Positions 49,566 through 56,424 of a stretch of DNA of 64,000 nt are shown here, in pieces. The translations under genes and the position numbers were made by a program. The stretch's first letter is position 1. Each line of letters starts with the position of its first letter. This DNA is from a virus: the IMG/VR virus record IMGVR_UViG_3300031963_008876, positions 1 through 64,000 of that record; one strand, 5' to 3'. The notes under the pieces are model-generated. The model was not told the DNA's origin and searched no databases. It saw only the letters and a program-made list of their open reading frames with translations.

Positions 49566-49573
49566 TATTTATA
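49566..49573 (-). promoter_or_regulatory. Exact T4 late promoter TATAAATA
   Basis: TATAAATA on the minus strand spans the gp20 stop region and is followed by TAATC and the ATG at 49560. It should start the core/capsid transcript (72-aa gene, 67, 21, 22, 23). Confidence 0.65.
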
Positions 49574-51329
49574 CTCCGCCAGGTGCAGCCCCAGGTGCAG
49601 CCGCGCCAGGGCCAACCATTTCGCCTGCGCCAGGCTGTTGCATTTGCCCAATTTCTTCGCCAGTGGTAATATCAGTTTCCATGCCGCCAGGCGTGATACC
49701 CACAGAACGTAAGTCAGCACCGCCTGAATTTTGCATTTCAGGGCTATCACGTTCTTCTCGCCAGAGTTCTTCGTTTTCTTTGATTTCGTCTTCACTCAAT
49801 CCCAAGAAACGCTGTAGCATAAAACGTTTTGACATGTAAGGCAGTTGCTCCATGGCTGTGAATGCTTGAATTCTTGTGTTGTCTAGTTCGCTTTGACGAT
49901 AACTTGCAAAGTTTTGAGGCGGTGAAAACTTCAAATTAAACAGGCTAGAGTCTATGTTAAACCCACGCCATTTCAAAAACATCTTGAATTCGTCGTCTAA
50001 TTTTTGTGAAATATGCCCTTGCAAACGCTCACAATACTGGTTGAATCTGTACTCTTGTATAAGAGCTGTGCCTACTTTTCCGTCTGAAAAAGCACGGTCT
50101 GAATCGTCAGGACCAGTGGGCAAATAGCTCGATGGCACACGCAGACCACGGGCCATTTTGTTGTTAAAGTACTTTAAGTCGTCAATTTCGCCTAGGTTTT
50201 GACCGCCTGGCAATGTCTCAACTGAGCTTCCGCGGCCGTCTTGTCCTTGTGGGAAAAAGTAGTCTTCGTTGATTGACAGTGGATTGTAACTGCTATCCAT
50301 CATGTTGGCTCCGCCACCTGATACCGTGGGGATTCTACGTTGATGCATTTCGTTTTTAACACGTTCCACAAACGCCATGGCCAAGTGTGATGGCATGTTG
50401 CCTACGTCAATTTTAAAGATTCGTCGTTCAGGAGCACGGCTCACACGATAAATCAAGATTGCATCTTCCAGCAGTTCTTTTTGCTTGAATACTTTGTAAA
50501 TCTGTTCTAGTACACTGCGTCCAAACGGCCAAAATACGTCTAGGCCTTCGTTCAAGCTCATGTGTATCACATGCTTGGCATCTAAACAAGTTTCGTTCAT
50601 GGCAGTCATAAAGCGACTGTTGCCCACGCCGCCACCTGACCCACCATTGGGCATGGTGTAGTTGGCAGCGCCAGATACACTGCCTGTCACAGGATTGGTC
50701 ATGTAGTCTGTGGTGGTCTTTGCTGCCACAGTCATGTTTTGGAAGTTGGGGTTGATGTCACGGATCACATATTGTTCAGGACGTTTGCCTTCAGATTCGT
50801 TCACAATAACTCTAGCAACTTTGGTCATGTCAACCCAGTACATTTCAAATGTTTCTGGATCACGCACAAACACCTGATCACCATACTTGATGGTGTTACG
50901 GAACAGTTTAAATATGCGCTGATCTAGTTTGTTCAGCTTGACCCACTGTTGCAGTTGTTTTTTAATGATGTCAACTTCGTGGTCTGTGGGTGTTTCGTTG
51001 TATTGAATGTCAAACGGGGTGGCGTTTGACTCGTTGATCTGTGTGGAAAACTCAGCAATAATATCCAAGCAGGCATTGATCTCTGAGTCCATGTCCATGT
51101 TCTCATACTGATTGTAACGCTCTACTCTGTTGGGATGGCCTGAATAAACTTCGGGCAATCTGCTGGCATAGTTTCGAAAAGTAAAATCATTTATCATCGA
51201 ATCAGAGCCGTCGTTTTTGCCGTAGTTGGACAATCCAAATTGATTTTGTCCAGAAATTGGACTCATCACTCCGGATGTGTCTGCAACTTTGAAATATTTG
51301 CGCCAGCCTTGTTGTTTGGGTTCTGCCAT
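49569..51329 (-). CDS. 20: Portal protein gp20
   Basis: This 586-residue protein has 'DSMINDFTFRNYASRLPEVYSGHPNRVERYNQYENMDMDSEINACLDIIAEFSTQ', 'LFRNTIKYGDQVFVRDPETFEMYWVDM', 'HMSLNEGLDVFWPFGRSVLEQIYKVFKQKELLEDAILIYRVSRAPERRIFKIDVGNMP' and 'DLKYFNNKMARGLRVPSSYLPTGPDDSDR', the blocks used as the g20 marker of T4-like phages. It forms the 12-fold portal. The C-terminal 50 residues are Gly/Ala/Pro rich. Confidence 0.95.
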   Translation of the reverse strand: MAEPKQQGWRKYFKVADTSGVMSPISGQNQFGLSNYGKNDGSDSMINDFTFRNYASRLPEVYSGHPNRVERYNQYENMDMDSEINACLDIIAEFSTQINESNATPFDIQYNETPTDHEVDIIKKQLQQWVKLNKLDQRIFKLFRNTIKYGDQVFVRDPETFEMYWVDMTKVARVIVNESEGKRPEQYVIRDINPNFQNMTVAAKTTTDYMTNPVTGSVSGAANYTMPNGGSGGGVGNSRFMTAMNETCLDAKHVIHMSLNEGLDVFWPFGRSVLEQIYKVFKQKELLEDAILIYRVSRAPERRIFKIDVGNMPSHLAMAFVERVKNEMHQRRIPTVSGGGANMMDSSYNPLSINEDYFFPQGQDGRGSSVETLPGGQNLGEIDDLKYFNNKMARGLRVPSSYLPTGPDDSDRAFSDGKVGTALIQEYRFNQYCERLQGHISQKLDDEFKMFLKWRGFNIDSSLFNLKFSPPQNFASYRQSELDNTRIQAFTAMEQLPYMSKRFMLQRFLGLSEDEIKENEELWREERDSPEMQNSGGADLRSVGITPGGMETDITTGEEIGQMQQPGAGEMVGPGAAAPGAAPGGV

Positions 51330-51345
51330 GGTTGTTTATTTACCG

Positions 51346-54300
51346 TTAGTTTGCACTCACCTGGAGTATCTTCTTGCTGATGTCGTTGGCTTCACTCTGC
51401 TTGGCAATTAGTGCATCAATGCCGGCAATCAGCGCATCTGTTTCTGGGGAAGCGTTTTCTTTGGCTATTTTATTTGCCATTTCTGTTCCCAATACTGTCA
51501 TAGCTTCTTTGAACTCTGCAAACATTAAATCAAATGCTTCTTTCTGATTCACACCGTTTTCGGCCACAATATCATTCAATCGTTGACCTAATAGGGGGCC
51601 TGCGCCGTCAAACATTTGAGTGCCTATTTTCATAATATTAGTATCAAAATTTGTTGCAATGCCTGAATTTATAATTTCTTTCCAGGTTGCTGGATCAGTG
51701 ATGGTTTGTGATGCTTTATCAAAAGCCCCCATGGCTGTTGCAATTTCTTTAACTGCGGCAAGATCAGTACTTACTGCTCCTGTATTGTAACCCGTATATT
51801 GATTGTAGCCCATGACTGATGGGCCAATGCCGCCTTCGGCCATTACATCTTTGAAATCCAGCTTGATCGGAATTGGCTTGGATATATTCAGTGGAATTTC
51901 TTTGCCATCCATGGGAATCACAGCTTCTGGACCTTTTTCACCAATCAACGCCAGTGTGGCTTTGTCCACCATGCCGCCATCACCAAATGCCGGGATCTGT
52001 GCATGGAAGTGGCCACCTGTGGCATTTTTAGTGGCGTTGTGGTACTCATCTATAGCAAGACTGGCTCCTGACTGTTTGAGCCAACTAACAATGCTTGCAC
52101 CTTCTTCTCGTGTGGGCTTTTTGTTCAGCACAAAGTCCATGGCCTGGCCTTTGGTATGCAAGCTATTTGGACTTTTTTCATTGTGGAATTGATCGTTAAA
52201 TCCTGTAAATGCTGAAAATCCAGGCACTAGACTTTGAACATTTTTAGCCAGCTCAATCAGCTTAGGGCTGATTGCCGCGCCTTCAGCTTGTACATCACGA
52301 TTGGGATCAAATTTGAGGCCCATGGACAACAAATTGTTTTCATTGGCAGTTTTCATGCCTTGGCCGCCACCTGGGCTAACACCGCTACCTCCGCCCATGC
52401 CCCCAGCTGGTGGTGCTGCTGGAATTTTTAGGCCAGTGCCTCCACCCATGCCTGGCGCACCGCCTGAACCCGCAGAACCACTTTGTTCAGATTGTTCTTG
52501 CAGTAGCTCTAAGTTTTCACCCAATATCTGGGTGACACTGTCAAGATATTTTTTGTGAAAATCCACAAACTCTTTTGTGCGTTTGGTGTCTTGATCAGTG
52601 TAACGTTCAATGCGTTGTATGTCTGTCAAAGTATCACGTTGAGCTACAATTACTGATTCTGTTGTTTTTTTGTTTTTATCGTTTAGCTCGTCAACAGATC
52701 TCAGTATTGCTTGATATGTGCTACCAACGTTTTGTGTGGTTCTCAAATTGTTAGTCAGTTCGTCATTGGTGTTAGTAACCACAGTTACAGAACTGCCCAT
52801 CACTTGAGATATCATATCAACACTGACTTGTCCTGAAGATACAGAAGAAGCCATTGACTCAAACATCTTGCTTAGTTTGTCATTGTTTATAATTTTTCCT
52901 GATTGCTCAGGCACCATGAGCTCTGGACCACGTTCGCCCACAATGTAGGGATTTCGTCTGCTGACAGGTCCGCCAGCGGCACGCCCAGGAGGAGTTAATG
53001 CGGTACCTAATGCATCAGCGCCCATGCCTAAATATTTGCCAAGAACACTACCAAGGGCAGTGGCAATATATGGGCCAATCTTTCCACCTATAGCGGCTCC
53101 AGCCACAGTGCCCGCAGGTCCAAAAAGAGAGCCAACTATTCCACCTGCATAAGTACCAGCTATTTTACCACCCGCCGCACCAGCTAATGCACCAACACCA
53201 GTTCCAACCATTTCACTGCCGCCAGATCTGTAAAATCCGCCCATGCCGTCTTTTTGTGTGGCTTCTACCACATCAACAGTTTTACCAACAATGAATCCTA
53301 GTTTTTCGGCAATCCAGTCTGTGAGTTTGACCATTTGTTTCATAAACTTGTCCATCACTGGTTGCAGTTCTTTAAATGCAGTGGCAATAGGTTCAGTAAC
53401 TCCGACCAAAGATTTGCTCATGGCAATGGCAGTGCTGATTGATTGCGACACTGTGGTCTCAAATTTTTCATTGGCATTGCGCTGCATTTCACGCAGTTCA
53501 GCCATGGCCCGAGTGTTGGCATCACCCAGGCCACTCATCTGTTTGTTTTGTTCAACGACAATTTCAGCAGCTATCTTACTGATGTCTTGCTGGGCAAAAA
53601 TAGCCAGTTTTTGTCCCTGTGCATAATCAATTGCAAAATCATTCAACAGGCCCAGCTGAGCCGTAAAGTTCAAGTCCTTATTGAATTGGCCAATTGAGGT
53701 ACCAATTTGTTTGACAGCTTGATTGGCATCAATTTGACCTGACTGCAATGCTTCACTTGATTGCATCAACTGACCTTGAGTGCTGATCACGCCCTTGACA
53801 GCAGCATCGCTGGTAAGAGCTCCAGATTGAATGTCTCTAAATGCTTGTCCTAACTCTGGAGCCTGCTTGCTCAACATAAGATTAGCTCTCATCAGTTGAT
53901 CAGCAGCAGCCATTTGTTGAGGATCCTTGGTCGCTCGCATGGCATCCAGCTTGGCACGGAATCTCTGTTCGCTGAGAGCAGATTCCATTTGCTTTTCAAT
54001 TTCTTGACGTTGCATGCCTGTGAGCTTGCTGAGGCCGTCCATTTCAACAAGATATTTTCTAGCACCAGTAGCCAGTTCTTGGTTGGTTTTGTTTTGACTC
54101 TGACCAATCAAAGTTTGCAGTCTCAAATAGCCAGCTGTTCCTTCAATCTGATCTTCCAGACTGATACCAGCTGCCTCTAAGCTGACCCGGAAAGGCTTCA
54201 TGGCCGCACCAATGTTGGCAAATGCCTGACGTCCTTCAAATGCTGTGCCTTTGAACAAGGCCAATTCTGCGCTGTTGGCTGCTACTGCATTGGTGTATAC

Positions 54301-54822
54301 ACCCAGCTCTTTCATGCTCAAGCCAAGCTTCTTGGCGTCGCGGAAGATGCCCATCATGCCATCTGAACCAGCCAGGCCAGCTTTGGCCATTTTGGTATTG
54401 GCAGCAAACAAGTTGTCGGCCATGTCGTTGGCCGCCTGAGTCATCTTAATACTAGCGCCAACTGCGGCTGTGCCCAGACCAATTAGAGCTTTGATCAAGA
54501 ACCCGCCAGGCACCAAGAAAGTCAACGCAGCACCGGCTGCGGTAACTGCTTTGCTCATGCTGTCAAGTGAACTGTTAAATGCTGCGGCGCCTTTTTGGCC
54601 ATCGTACATGGCTTTGCCGGCTGCAAGACCTGCACCTGCTAGGTTTCCCAGCGCACCTGCTGTTAACGCACTGGCCTTGTCAAGTTCTTTTGCTCGACGG
54701 AAACTTCCTGCTGCCAGTGCTGCCTGGGTATCTTCAGTAACTCGCCCAAAATTTCTAAGGTCGTCAGAAACTCGTGCTATGACTTCAGCCATTTCTTGTG
54801 ATGCTTGATTTACGTCCGCCAT
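51346..54822 (-). CDS. Tail tape-measure protein with embedded M15-type peptidase motif
   Basis: This 1158-residue protein has helical repeats, an N-terminal hydrophobic part near 95-125, and a Gly/Ala-rich membrane-like region near 535-610. 'VGERGPELMVPEQSGKIINN' near 630 and 'IGEKGPEAVIPMDGKE' near 965 are tape-measure hallmarks. Between them lies a D-Ala-D-Ala carboxypeptidase-like (M15) zinc site: 'SLHTKGQAMDF' near 885 (HxxGxAxD) and 'GHFHAQ' near 936 (HxH). It sets tail length and could open the cell wall. T4 gp29 has 590 residues and lacks this domain. It is divergent from gp26/gp51. Confidence 0.88.
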   Translation of the reverse strand: MADVNQASQEMAEVIARVSDDLRNFGRVTEDTQAALAAGSFRRAKELDKASALTAGALGNLAGAGLAAGKAMYDGQKGAAAFNSSLDSMSKAVTAAGAALTFLVPGGFLIKALIGLGTAAVGASIKMTQAANDMADNLFAANTKMAKAGLAGSDGMMGIFRDAKKLGLSMKELGVYTNAVAANSAELALFKGTAFEGRQAFANIGAAMKPFRVSLEAAGISLEDQIEGTAGYLRLQTLIGQSQNKTNQELATGARKYLVEMDGLSKLTGMQRQEIEKQMESALSEQRFRAKLDAMRATKDPQQMAAADQLMRANLMLSKQAPELGQAFRDIQSGALTSDAAVKGVISTQGQLMQSSEALQSGQIDANQAVKQIGTSIGQFNKDLNFTAQLGLLNDFAIDYAQGQKLAIFAQQDISKIAAEIVVEQNKQMSGLGDANTRAMAELREMQRNANEKFETTVSQSISTAIAMSKSLVGVTEPIATAFKELQPVMDKFMKQMVKLTDWIAEKLGFIVGKTVDVVEATQKDGMGGFYRSGGSEMVGTGVGALAGAAGGKIAGTYAGGIVGSLFGPAGTVAGAAIGGKIGPYIATALGSVLGKYLGMGADALGTALTPPGRAAGGPVSRRNPYIVGERGPELMVPEQSGKIINNDKLSKMFESMASSVSSGQVSVDMISQVMGSSVTVVTNTNDELTNNLRTTQNVGSTYQAILRSVDELNDKNKKTTESVIVAQRDTLTDIQRIERYTDQDTKRTKEFVDFHKKYLDSVTQILGENLELLQEQSEQSGSAGSGGAPGMGGGTGLKIPAAPPAGGMGGGSGVSPGGGQGMKTANENNLLSMGLKFDPNRDVQAEGAAISPKLIELAKNVQSLVPGFSAFTGFNDQFHNEKSPNSLHTKGQAMDFVLNKKPTREEGASIVSWLKQSGASLAIDEYHNATKNATGGHFHAQIPAFGDGGMVDKATLALIGEKGPEAVIPMDGKEIPLNISKPIPIKLDFKDVMAEGGIGPSVMGYNQYTGYNTGAVSTDLAAVKEIATAMGAFDKASQTITDPATWKEIINSGIATNFDTNIMKIGTQMFDGAGPLLGQRLNDIVAENGVNQKEAFDLMFAEFKEAMTVLGTEMANKIAKENASPETDALIAGIDALIAKQSEANDISKKILQVSAN

Positions 54823-54863: not shown

Positions 54864-55709
54864 ATGAACCAAAATCACAATCCACTTAGACAATTTTTTA
54901 GACAACCAGCAATTTACTTGCGGTTGCCCAGCCAGGGCAAATACTGGCCCGAAGGCAGCTTAGACGTGCCTCAAAACGGTGAGCTGCCTGTTTATCCCAT
55001 GACAGCCATTGACGAAATCACCTATCGCACGCCAGATGCGCTGTTTAGCGGGCAAGCTGTGGTCAATGTAATACACAGTTGTGTGCCGTCAATTAAGAAT
55101 GCCTGGCATGCTCCTGTGGCAGATTTGAATTCTATCCTAGTTGCTATTCGTATTGCCAGCTACGGGCATGAGCTTGAAATTGAAACTACATGTCCTGCTT
55201 GCAAACACATTGAGAGTTTTGCGTTAGACTTGCGCAATGCACTGGATCAGTTGACCATGCCGGACTTTTCTGCCACAGTAACTTATGGTGATTTGGAAAT
55301 TTATTTTCATCCCATGAGTTACGAAAAGCAAAATGAAATCAATCTTGAGCAGTTTGAAAATCAACGCATGATGCGCAACATCAGCATGGATACTGAGCTC
55401 ACCGAAGACGAAAAGTTACAAAAACTAGCAGAAGTGATGAAAATACTAACTCAGCTGACCATGCGAGCTCTCAAGTACTCAATTTCAGCAATTCGTACAC
55501 CAAATGCTGTTGTGTCAGAGACTGAGCACATTGATGAATTTTTGCAAAACTGCGATCGTCAAATTTTTGTTGCTGTTAGAGATCACGCAGTTGACTTGCG
55601 CAATCGTACAGAACTGAAACCTGTGCATCTCACTTGCAGTGAATGCAATCACGAACATGATCAAGCACTAAATCTGGATCTTACAAATTTTTTCGAAGCC
55701 GCCTCCTGA
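54864..55709 (+). CDS. 26: gp26-like baseplate hub/tail assembly protein
   Basis: This 281-residue protein contains the T4_baseplate (gp26) pattern: 'IYLRLPSQGKYWPEGSLDVPQNGELPVYPMTAIDEITYRTPDALFSGQAVVNVIHSCVPSIKNAW'. Cysteine pairs C110/C113 and C258/C261 could form a zinc site. T4 gp26 has 208 residues. The stop TGA at 55707-55709 lies inside a stem that follows a T TTT TTC slippery site at codons 276-277. The divergent neighbour is the tape-measure protein, whose assembly needs chaperones. In T4, genes 26 and 51 are also adjacent. Confidence 0.85.
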   Translation: MNQNHNPLRQFFRQPAIYLRLPSQGKYWPEGSLDVPQNGELPVYPMTAIDEITYRTPDALFSGQAVVNVIHSCVPSIKNAWHAPVADLNSILVAIRIASYGHELEIETTCPACKHIESFALDLRNALDQLTMPDFSATVTYGDLEIYFHPMSYEKQNEINLEQFENQRMMRNISMDTELTEDEKLQKLAEVMKILTQLTMRALKYSISAIRTPNAVVSETEHIDEFLQNCDRQIFVAVRDHAVDLRNRTELKPVHLTCSECNHEHDQALNLDLTNFFEAAS

Positions 55710-55761
55710 TCCTCCCAGTAGAGGAAATTGGCGAGTACATTGACAGCCTTGATCAGGAGGC
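55688..55761 (+). promoter_or_regulatory. Programmed -1 frameshift signal (slippery site plus stem)
   Basis: The heptamer T TTT TTC at 55688-55694 is in the correct phase (XXXYYYZ with X=T, Y=T, Z=C). Six bases later the 11-base GCCTCCTGATC (55701-55711) pairs perfectly with GATCAGGAGGC (55751-55761). The gp26 stop codon lies in the stem. This matches the standard signal for -1 frameshifting in tail genes. No frameshift efficiency can be judged from sequence. Confidence 0.8.
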
Positions 55762-55924
55762 CAACGCAATTAGATCAAACAGTTTAAGATTGGCTTGGTT
55801 AATGCGCGGCGGACTCACCTACGATCAGGTGTTGGCACTAAGTTTCACTGAAAGAAAAATGATCAGCAAGATAGCCGAAGAAAACATGGAAACCACCAAC
55901 AAAACTAAACTGCCGTATTTCTAA
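55688..55924 (+). CDS. 51: gp51-like baseplate hub assembly protein, made as a -1 frameshift extension of gp26
   Basis: In the -1 frame relative to gp26, residues 'LLILPVEEIGEYIDSLDQEA', 'AWLMRGGLTYDQVLALS' and 'MISKIAEENMETTNKTKLPYF' follow the gp51 pattern of T4-like marine phages. The frame is open from 55661 to the TAA at 55922-55924. It has no ATG or GTG until an internal ATG that would lose the conserved N-terminal half; a TTG lies four codons before that ATG. A frameshift at 55688-55694 gives a 353-residue gp26-gp51 product. The stop overlaps the next ATG (TAATG). Independent initiation at a weak codon is the alternative. Confidence 0.75.
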   Translation, partial: FFRSRLLILPVEEIGEYIDSLDQEANAIRSNSLRLAWLMRGGLTYDQVLALSFTERKMISKIAEENMETTNKTKLPYF

Positions 55925-56424
55925 TGGACTTAGATACAGTTAAACAAGATATTGAAAACTGGATTGTGAACTTTGTAGAAGTTCCACATCCTGCTCTTGG
56001 AGGCTGGGCTCCTTGTCCATACGCACGCTCAGCACGCATGAAAAAAAGCTACGATGTACATGTTGGCGTAGATCCTTACTTTGATCTTAAAAATCGAGCA
56101 CGATGGGGCATGGGCGATAAGGAAGTTATTATCTATGCTTACGATCCTGTGGAATGGCCATATGAATTGTTCAGTGACAGTTTGAAAAATGCCAACAAGG
56201 AACATTTGTTACGCAACGATCTACTTGCACTAGAGGATCATCCCGCAGACGTTGAGATGGTGAACGGTGTGTGTATGAATCAAGGCAAGTATGCTCTAGC
56301 TCTAGTGCAAAGTCTCAGCGACTTAAACAACAAAGCCAAACTTATGGCTGAGAAGGGATTCTATCACAACTGGCCAGAAGAGTATCTTGCGGGACTGTTT
56401 GAACATCGTAAGGATCCAAGATGA
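55924..56424 (+). CDS. Conserved phage protein with CPYA motif
   Basis: This 166-residue protein starts 'MDLDTVKQDIENWIVNFVEVPHPALGGWAPCPYARSARMKKSYDV'. The Pro-Cys-Pro-Tyr-Ala motif near residue 31 and 'KEVIIYAYDPVEWP' near 65 recur in phage proteins encoded next to gp51. A second cysteine near residue 117 could partner with the first. No known catalytic domain is recognised. It overlaps the gp51 stop by one base and the next gene by four bases. Confidence 0.65.
   Translation: MDLDTVKQDIENWIVNFVEVPHPALGGWAPCPYARSARMKKSYDVHVGVDPYFDLKNRARWGMGDKEVIIYAYDPVEWPYELFSDSLKNANKEHLLRNDLLALEDHPADVEMVNGVCMNQGKYALALVQSLSDLNNKAKLMAEKGFYHNWPEEYLAGLFEHRKDPR

Follow-up and report, generated by a model that had tools for sequence, protein, structure and literature searches.

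The question raised by this locus is whether every ribosome translating the gp26-like gene terminates at its TGA codon, or whether some of them shift into the -1 frame just before it and make a longer protein. The window, meaning the whole stretch of 64,000 nucleotides that was analysed, covers positions 1 to 64,000 of IMG/VR record IMGVR_UViG_3300031963_008876. In the initial annotation a programmed -1 frameshift was proposed to fuse gp26 to gp51 and to give a pair of tail chaperones. Our analysis indicates that -1 ribosomal frameshifting very probably yields tail-assembly chaperones of 281 aa and 353 aa beside a divergent tape-measure gene; both the slippage and the chaperone role we infer from sequence comparison. 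The relevant features are as follows.

49569-51329, minus strand: portal protein gp20 (PF07230, E 8.8e-105), the next gene past the tape measure
51346-54822, minus strand: divergent neighbour, probable tape-measure protein of 1158 aa (PHROG tape-measure matches)
54864-55709, plus strand: gp26-like gene, putative short tail-assembly chaperone of 281 aa (PF12322, E 9.6e-15; phrog_150 'baseplate hub', E 8.8e-18)
55685-55691, plus strand: second in-phase heptamer, A AAT TTT, overlapping T TTT TTC
55688-55694, plus strand: slippery heptamer T TTT TTC, in phase, four codons ahead of the TGA stop
55694-55924, plus strand: -1 frame extension after the slip, an open frame of 76 codons (55694-55921) plus TAA (55922-55924)
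55695-55700, plus strand: spacer of 6 nt between heptamer and stem
55701-55711, plus strand: 5' arm of the stem, containing the stop codon and pairing perfectly over 11 bp with 55751-55761
55751-55761, plus strand: 3' arm of the stem (11 bp, loop of 39 nt)
55924-56424: next ORF, matching phrog_28122 (function unknown)

The slip site in the window

The gp26-like ORF, which ends with TGA at 55707-55709, scored 55.3 bits against PF12322 (T4_baseplate; cut-off 24.5) and gave the only match to this family in the whole 149,596-base record. When the site (55661-55924) was rechecked, every coordinate in the initial annotation was correct, and the heptamer, the 6-nt spacer, the 11-bp stem and the gp26 stop that it describes are all present. 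An in-phase T TTT TTC occurred once in the 19,412 codons of the 49 window ORFs chosen as likely genes. The RNA from 55688 to 55775 folded at -26.2 kcal/mol (z -3.0 vs dinucleotide shuffles, with 1 of 200 shuffles equally stable). The slip-site arrangement in the window is well above chance. The overlapping A AAT TTT is not conserved among relatives, in which the residue preceding the two phenylalanines was asparagine in just 32 of 85. By arithmetic, the product of a -1 slip at T TTT TTC would have 353 aa (277 + 76). The -1 frame stop overlaps the ATG of the next ORF as TAATG (55922-55926), which suggests translational coupling with that ORF.

Conservation of the slip site among relatives

Relatives of gp26 were gathered by protein similarity, blind to the heptamer; one relative set consisted of the best 80 of 124 loci, and 17 of 63 matched phage records were examined. 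The junction was readable in 165 loci, which gave 112 distinct junctions. Left out of these counts were 8 loci together with L013, L017 and L020, where the sequence stops short of the junction. The heptamer expected at related junctions was found: T TTT TTC was present in 108 of the 112 distinct junctions, and the -1 frame was open in all 108. By source, it was found in all 90 IMG/VR junctions and in 18 of the 22 junctions from phage records, the latter comprising 15 of 17 jumbo-phage records and 3 of 5 more distant ones (cyanophage Sf-FS3, Rhizobium phage IC12 and Aeromonas phage phiAS5). The heptamer was this widely kept although gp26 identity to that of the window fell as low as 25%. The sets of 85, 67, 90 and 18 junctions used below contain T TTT TTC junctions only (L031, L037, L042 and L043 excluded).

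The two phenylalanines encoded by the heptamer were invariant in gp26 alignments of 21 and of 65 members. Near the gp26 end they were found in 109 distinct junctions, 108 of which carried T TTT TTC and one TTTTTTT, and they were absent in 3 further distinct junctions. From the codon usage of gp26 in the 85 relatives, the expected probability of NNT TTT TTC given any residue followed by FF was 0.064. The residue before FF was of nine kinds over the 85 heptamer junctions.

Of the variant junctions, that of Xanthomonas phage XacN1 (L031) read TTTTTTT and that of Rhizobium phage RL38J1 (L043) TTTTTTG. The heptamer was absent at the junction in 2 of 112, namely uncultured LR756508 (L037) and Pseudomonas phage Cygsa01 (L042). 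In LR756508 a stretch reminiscent of the extension, YSNGGYSW, sits in the +1 frame (L037:3260), hinting that a +1 shift may operate there. In Cygsa01 the junction reads TAATG (L042:3307), the gp26 stop running into a possible start codon, so the extension there may be a separate coupled gene. Sequencing error as the source of the arrangement was ruled out, since the arrangement recurs in 108 distinct junctions.

A co-evolving stem downstream of the heptamer

Downstream of the heptamer, the best helix of the 90 IMG/VR junctions averaged 10.9 bp, compared with 6.7 in synonymous-codon shuffles, and in 74 of them at most 1 of 40 shuffles reached the junction's own best helix. The minimum free energy, calculated over a 70-nt stretch that cuts off some stems, had a mean z of -2.15 and was below -1.5 in 61 of 90. 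In a non-redundant set of 67 loci (80% identity of the extension), arms from the same locus scored 25.5, and exchanging the 3' arms between loci abolished the pairing (permuted mean 16.8, sd 0.55, maximum 18.9 of 5000). These figures overstate independence because the loci are related by descent, although lineages differ in register and in arm sequence. The spacer was 6 nt long in 31 of these loci and 3-6 nt in 62. The stem co-evolves in the window's clade.

The register, defined as the sum-of-position of the paired arms, was 79 in 36 of the 67 loci, 72 (that of the window) in 10, 59 in 9, 93 in 3, 60 in 2 and another value in 7. All 8 of 8 pairs formed in register 59, 60, 72, 79 or 93 in 54 of the 67. 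When registers were shifted as a control, shifts of 2-6 gave 0-2 loci and +1 gave 3; the 7 loci at -1 stem from register 60, which that shift turns into register 59, and without it the number was 0. Co-variation was followed further in alignment A7 (26 chosen of 43 register-79 loci) and alignment A6 (11 loci chosen near the window, 10 of register 72 and one of register 80). Since both consist of chosen loci, their percentages paired are selected; the arm-swap and register counts use all 67 loci. In A7, 27 cells were changed on both sides vs 10.6 in shuffles, with 0 of 500 shuffles reaching 27, and RNAalifold recovered the register-79 stem unprompted. The A6 helix was mostly invariant (96.6% paired), with two both-side cells and no more pair types than in shuffles; sliding it by +1 gave a covariation of 0.145 vs 0.127 in register, yet only 62.5% was paired. 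The co-variation is therefore carried by the whole clade and not by the nearest kin of the window. The loop tended to hold further structure (mean z -1.1, 63 loci).

That every phage with a T TTT TTC frameshift would have such a stem was rejected, since shuffles were beaten in only 5 of 18 named phages that carry the heptamer; the sequences of Phosso and Atu_ph07 do fold into a stem. The stem noted in the initial annotation thus holds up as a co-varying element of the window's clade and does not extend to named phages in general. An Rfam scan around the site gave one match (E 0.41), below the gathering score.

The 3' partner was found at places in the extension that give loops of about 28, 45, 48 and 68 nt. 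With the 5' arm fixed and the 3' partner moved, the helix would have persisted through changes of partner within a coding region. On balance we favour a history in which, across a broad clade of uncultured T4-like phages, the frameshift is driven by a stem with its 5' arm fixed 3-6 nt after T TTT TTC and its 3' partner shifted among four or more sites, and in which the frameshift is ancestral and was replaced by duplication in the T4 lineage. The direction of change between frameshift and duplication is inferred.

The extension and its relation to gp51

In alignment A5 of the extension (65 members of the window's clade), F1, F2, R3, W37 and R40 were invariant. Both A4 and A5 combine the window with 64 loci from the non-redundant set of 67, omitting L002, L068 and L162. 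The AlphaFold2 model of the extension was an all-helical domain with a pLDDT of 90.4. Pfam and PHROG scans with the window's extension alone gave nothing useful. Among relatives, phrog_18291 (59 aa, function unknown) matched the extensions of the jumbo phages L021, L027, L029, L033 and L034 from residue 15/16, and it appears to be the C-terminal domain of the extension cut by gene callers at a false internal start. Another family, phrog_634 'baseplate hub assembly catalyst', matched the extensions of the cyanophage, phiAS5 and IC12.

Kinship to gp51 was evaluated with profiles. The profile of the window-clade extension matched that of nine named RaK2-like jumbo phages, Xanthomonas and Vibrio ones included, at 97.5% (E 5.6e-12), and the cyanophage-type extensions (from the cyanophage, phiAS5 and two Rhizobium phages) matched the last 62 residues of gp51 in a set of six T4-type sequences at 97.5% (E 7.1e-12). 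Direct matching of the window-clade extension to the T4-type gp51 C-terminus was weak (44%, E 2.3e-4). The RaK2-like extension had no profile match there (0.9%), the RaK2-like and cyanophage-type extensions matched weakly (22%, E 9.6e-4), and the window clade hardly matched the cyanophage-type set at all (1.1%). With no single strong alignment, the term 'gp51-like' is justified by where the extension stands, behind a shared core, and by an incomplete chain of profile matches. The -1 frame sequence, called gp51-like in the initial annotation, accordingly fits the extension of T4 gp51 and that part only, the match from the window's clade being weak.

T4 gp26 is a bare PF12322 core and T4 gp51 is a gp26-type core followed by an extension, so the two are paralogues. 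It follows that the long frameshift product would itself be the counterpart of gp51, and the description of it as gp26 fused to gp51 has to be given up, since gp51 already contains the gp26-type core.

Gene number was determined by scanning 28 phage records for PF12322. Two genes were found in six T4-type records (T4, RB43, Aeromonas phage 31, Proteus phiP4-3, Acinetobacter 3014 and Krischvirus LF73P4), a count that is partly by choice because five of the six were picked from gp51 matches. Among the other 22 records, 21 had one PF12322 gene over the cut-off and Salicola phage SCTP-2 had none detectable; for the 18 named records with the heptamer the numbers were 17 with one gene and one with none detectable. 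RL38J1 had an extra PF12322 fragment of 20 positions, below the cut-off. Aeromonas phage phiAS5 is classed in Straboviridae, yet it has a single PF12322 gene and the heptamer. A second PF12322 paralogue as in T4 was not found in the record of the window (149,596 bases), though that record may be incomplete. Two contigs, L006 (364,404 bases) and L007 (286,229 bases), carry a gp26 that matches the window's at 100%, so the record is probably a fragment of a jumbo phage.

Neighbouring genes

The divergent gene at 51346-54822 matched three PHROG families named 'tail length tape measure protein', phrog_5062 (E 2.4e-8), phrog_10574 (E 1.6e-5) and phrog_1538 (E 1.2e-4), and its best match was phrog_30701, a family of unknown function (E 1.6e-10). 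The divergent neighbour thus looks like a tape-measure gene, as had been proposed. Residues 880-930 of its product gave a weak endolysin-type match (phrog_894, E 0.013), so the tape-measure-like protein may carry a peptidase domain.

Upstream sequence was sufficient in 85 loci, and in 77 of them (64 of 65 from IMG/VR and 13 of 20 from phage records) a divergent ORF no shorter than 300 aa was found beside gp26. It was not found in 7 of the 20 phage records, namely Atu_ph07, Vibrio phage 2.275.O, Sf-FS3, IC12, phiAS5, XacN1 and LR756508. By BLAST, 58 of 81 upstream proteins were similar to that of the window, only one of them from a phage record.

Proposed mechanism and alternative explanations

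In the proposed mechanism, ribosomes on the gp26-like gene would reach T TTT TTC, where a fraction would slip one base back, held during the slip by the stem 6 nt downstream. Ribosomes that do not slip would end at the TGA at 55707 and release the short protein of 281 aa. Those that slip would melt the stem and continue in the -1 frame to give the protein of 353 aa, which would have its first 277 residues in common with the short form and then a helical domain of 76 residues. By analogy with lambda gpG/gpGT, both forms may form a coat on the tape-measure protein, and the C-terminal domain present in the long form alone may bring in tail-tube subunits. Scans against Pfam tail-chaperone families gave no credible match, PF23746 (Gp41_Mu) appearing in 2 of 65 with a best E of 0.058. 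The gp26 fold had no match to solved structures at E 0.001, and the matches listed were generic helical ones with no tail chaperone among them, a listing that rules nothing out. The extension gave a weak structural match to the 'Tape measure chaperone' of Moogle (E 0.5, TM 0.59).

No slip would be needed if the extension were a small gene of its own, which ribosomes enter by reinitiating or at an internal start codon, with the heptamer a coincidence. Several public records do annotate it as its own gene, and the Cygsa01 junction, with TAATG and no heptamer, would suit this explanation. The initial annotation had the -1 frame lacking a usable start in its conserved first half. Over the 85 junctions, ATG occurred inside the first ten -1 codons in 13 and ATG, GTG or TTG inside the first 20 in 65, which also suits a separate gene. 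Against it, no early start is conserved, and a Shine-Dalgarno-like motif 5-16 nt ahead never accompanied a start codon lying before index 16; only 18 start codons with such a motif were found across all 85 loci, at indices 16-36 and 38. No early position of the first ATG is shared; it was commonest at indices 20 (25 of 85) and 38 (22 of 85), both within the conserved extension. The window itself offers no ATG, GTG or TTG ahead of the TTG at 55790, which is codon 35 of 78 when counting begins at the heptamer; an ATG first appears at 55802. Moreover, the conserved extension begins at the heptamer, upstream of any start, with FFR invariant in 65 of 65, and the phrog_18291 matches begin at residue 15/16, as would be expected of calls cut internally. 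A separate gene is therefore very unlikely.

Transcriptional slippage on the run of T, by which RNA polymerase and not the ribosome would join the frames, would give an identical product, and the run of six T is conserved. Six bases are short for RNA polymerase slippage, however, and the base after them was C in 108 of 112 junctions, G in one and T in one. A co-evolving stem, which starts 3-6 nt after the heptamer in 62 of 67 loci, is what an element that stalls ribosomes would look like, and we give transcriptional slippage the smallest chance of the explanations considered. A further possibility accepts the frameshift and takes gp26 and its extension for structural parts of the baseplate hub rather than assembly chaperones. 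The family is annotated as baseplate hub, and genetic studies cited in the relevant passages of a T4 review put gp26 in the hub (PMC3004832). The same passages list gp26 and gp51 as hub assembly chaperones, and state that gp51 is absent from the final particle (PMC3004832). As weak evidence in the same direction, no solved chain matched T4 gp51 at E 1, and T4 gp26 obtained only 13-residue zinc-finger matches among solved chains. The divergent neighbour in the window is, moreover, a tape-measure-like gene. A structural role in the hub is unlikely, and the reading of the two forms as assembly chaperones made by ribosomal frameshifting is preferred.

Comparison with known systems

In lambda the tape-measure gene adjoins the gpG/gpGT genes and lies downstream of them, whereas in the window it is divergent. 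Compared with lambda, which is known here by description, the window has a PF12322 core of 281 aa, the heptamer T TTT TTC and a co-evolving stem with a long loop. The likeness lies in one gene with a -1 slip near its 3' end, predicted in the case of the window, that gives a short and a long product, which in lambda both bind the tape measure, according to the passages on gpG/gpGT in a review (PMC5009743). Frameshifted tail chaperones are a classic case, and the same passages still call T4 an exception (PMC5009743).

More recent papers, in the passages relevant here, report that some T4-like phages have one short copy and one longer fused copy (PMC10274946, citing Vladimirov et al. 2022) and that T-rich slip sites occur in T4-like tail-chaperone genes (PMC12846349, citing Vladimirov et al. 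2022). The two T4 genes of Vladimirov, Gautam and Davidson 2022 are presumably 26 and 51. To recast gp26 and gp51 as a chaperone pair, as the initial annotation did, is therefore not new, being contained in substance in such passages of the papers citing Vladimirov et al. 2022. Corresponding passages of PMC12671138, PMC13222765, PMC9603447 and PMC12859696 hold no detail on T4-like slip sites, and no paper on a RaK2-like frameshift or its stem was found among the listings of open-licence PMC texts. Within these sources, the idea of short and long chaperones in T4-like phages is already in print, and the new detail is the co-varying, partner-switching stem and the mis-split annotations. In several public annotations the second half of the long product is missing or listed as a gene apart. 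The comparisons point to a large group of T4-like jumbo phages, with cultured as well as uncultured members, that would make two chaperone forms from one gene, and the co-evolving stem is a ready natural series for studying RNA structure in bacterial -1 slippage.

Another close parallel is found in the Vandenendeviridae and Andersonviridae, where the frameshift section on phage Adele describes a family-conserved -1 open frame, a T-rich slippery site and a downstream ORF annotated as a separate gene (PMC12846349). The motif invariant there is GTTTTT, as opposed to TTTTTTC in the window, and that section describes no stem (PMC12846349). T4 itself has the PF12322 core in common with the window, and the C-terminal extension of its gp51 stands at the same place. 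The difference is that T4 has two divergent PF12322 genes for the two forms whereas the window's record has one gene and a frameshift site. T4 thus seems to use two genes where the phage of the window would use one, and the simplest reading is that frameshifting and duplication are two ways to make the same pair of short and long proteins.
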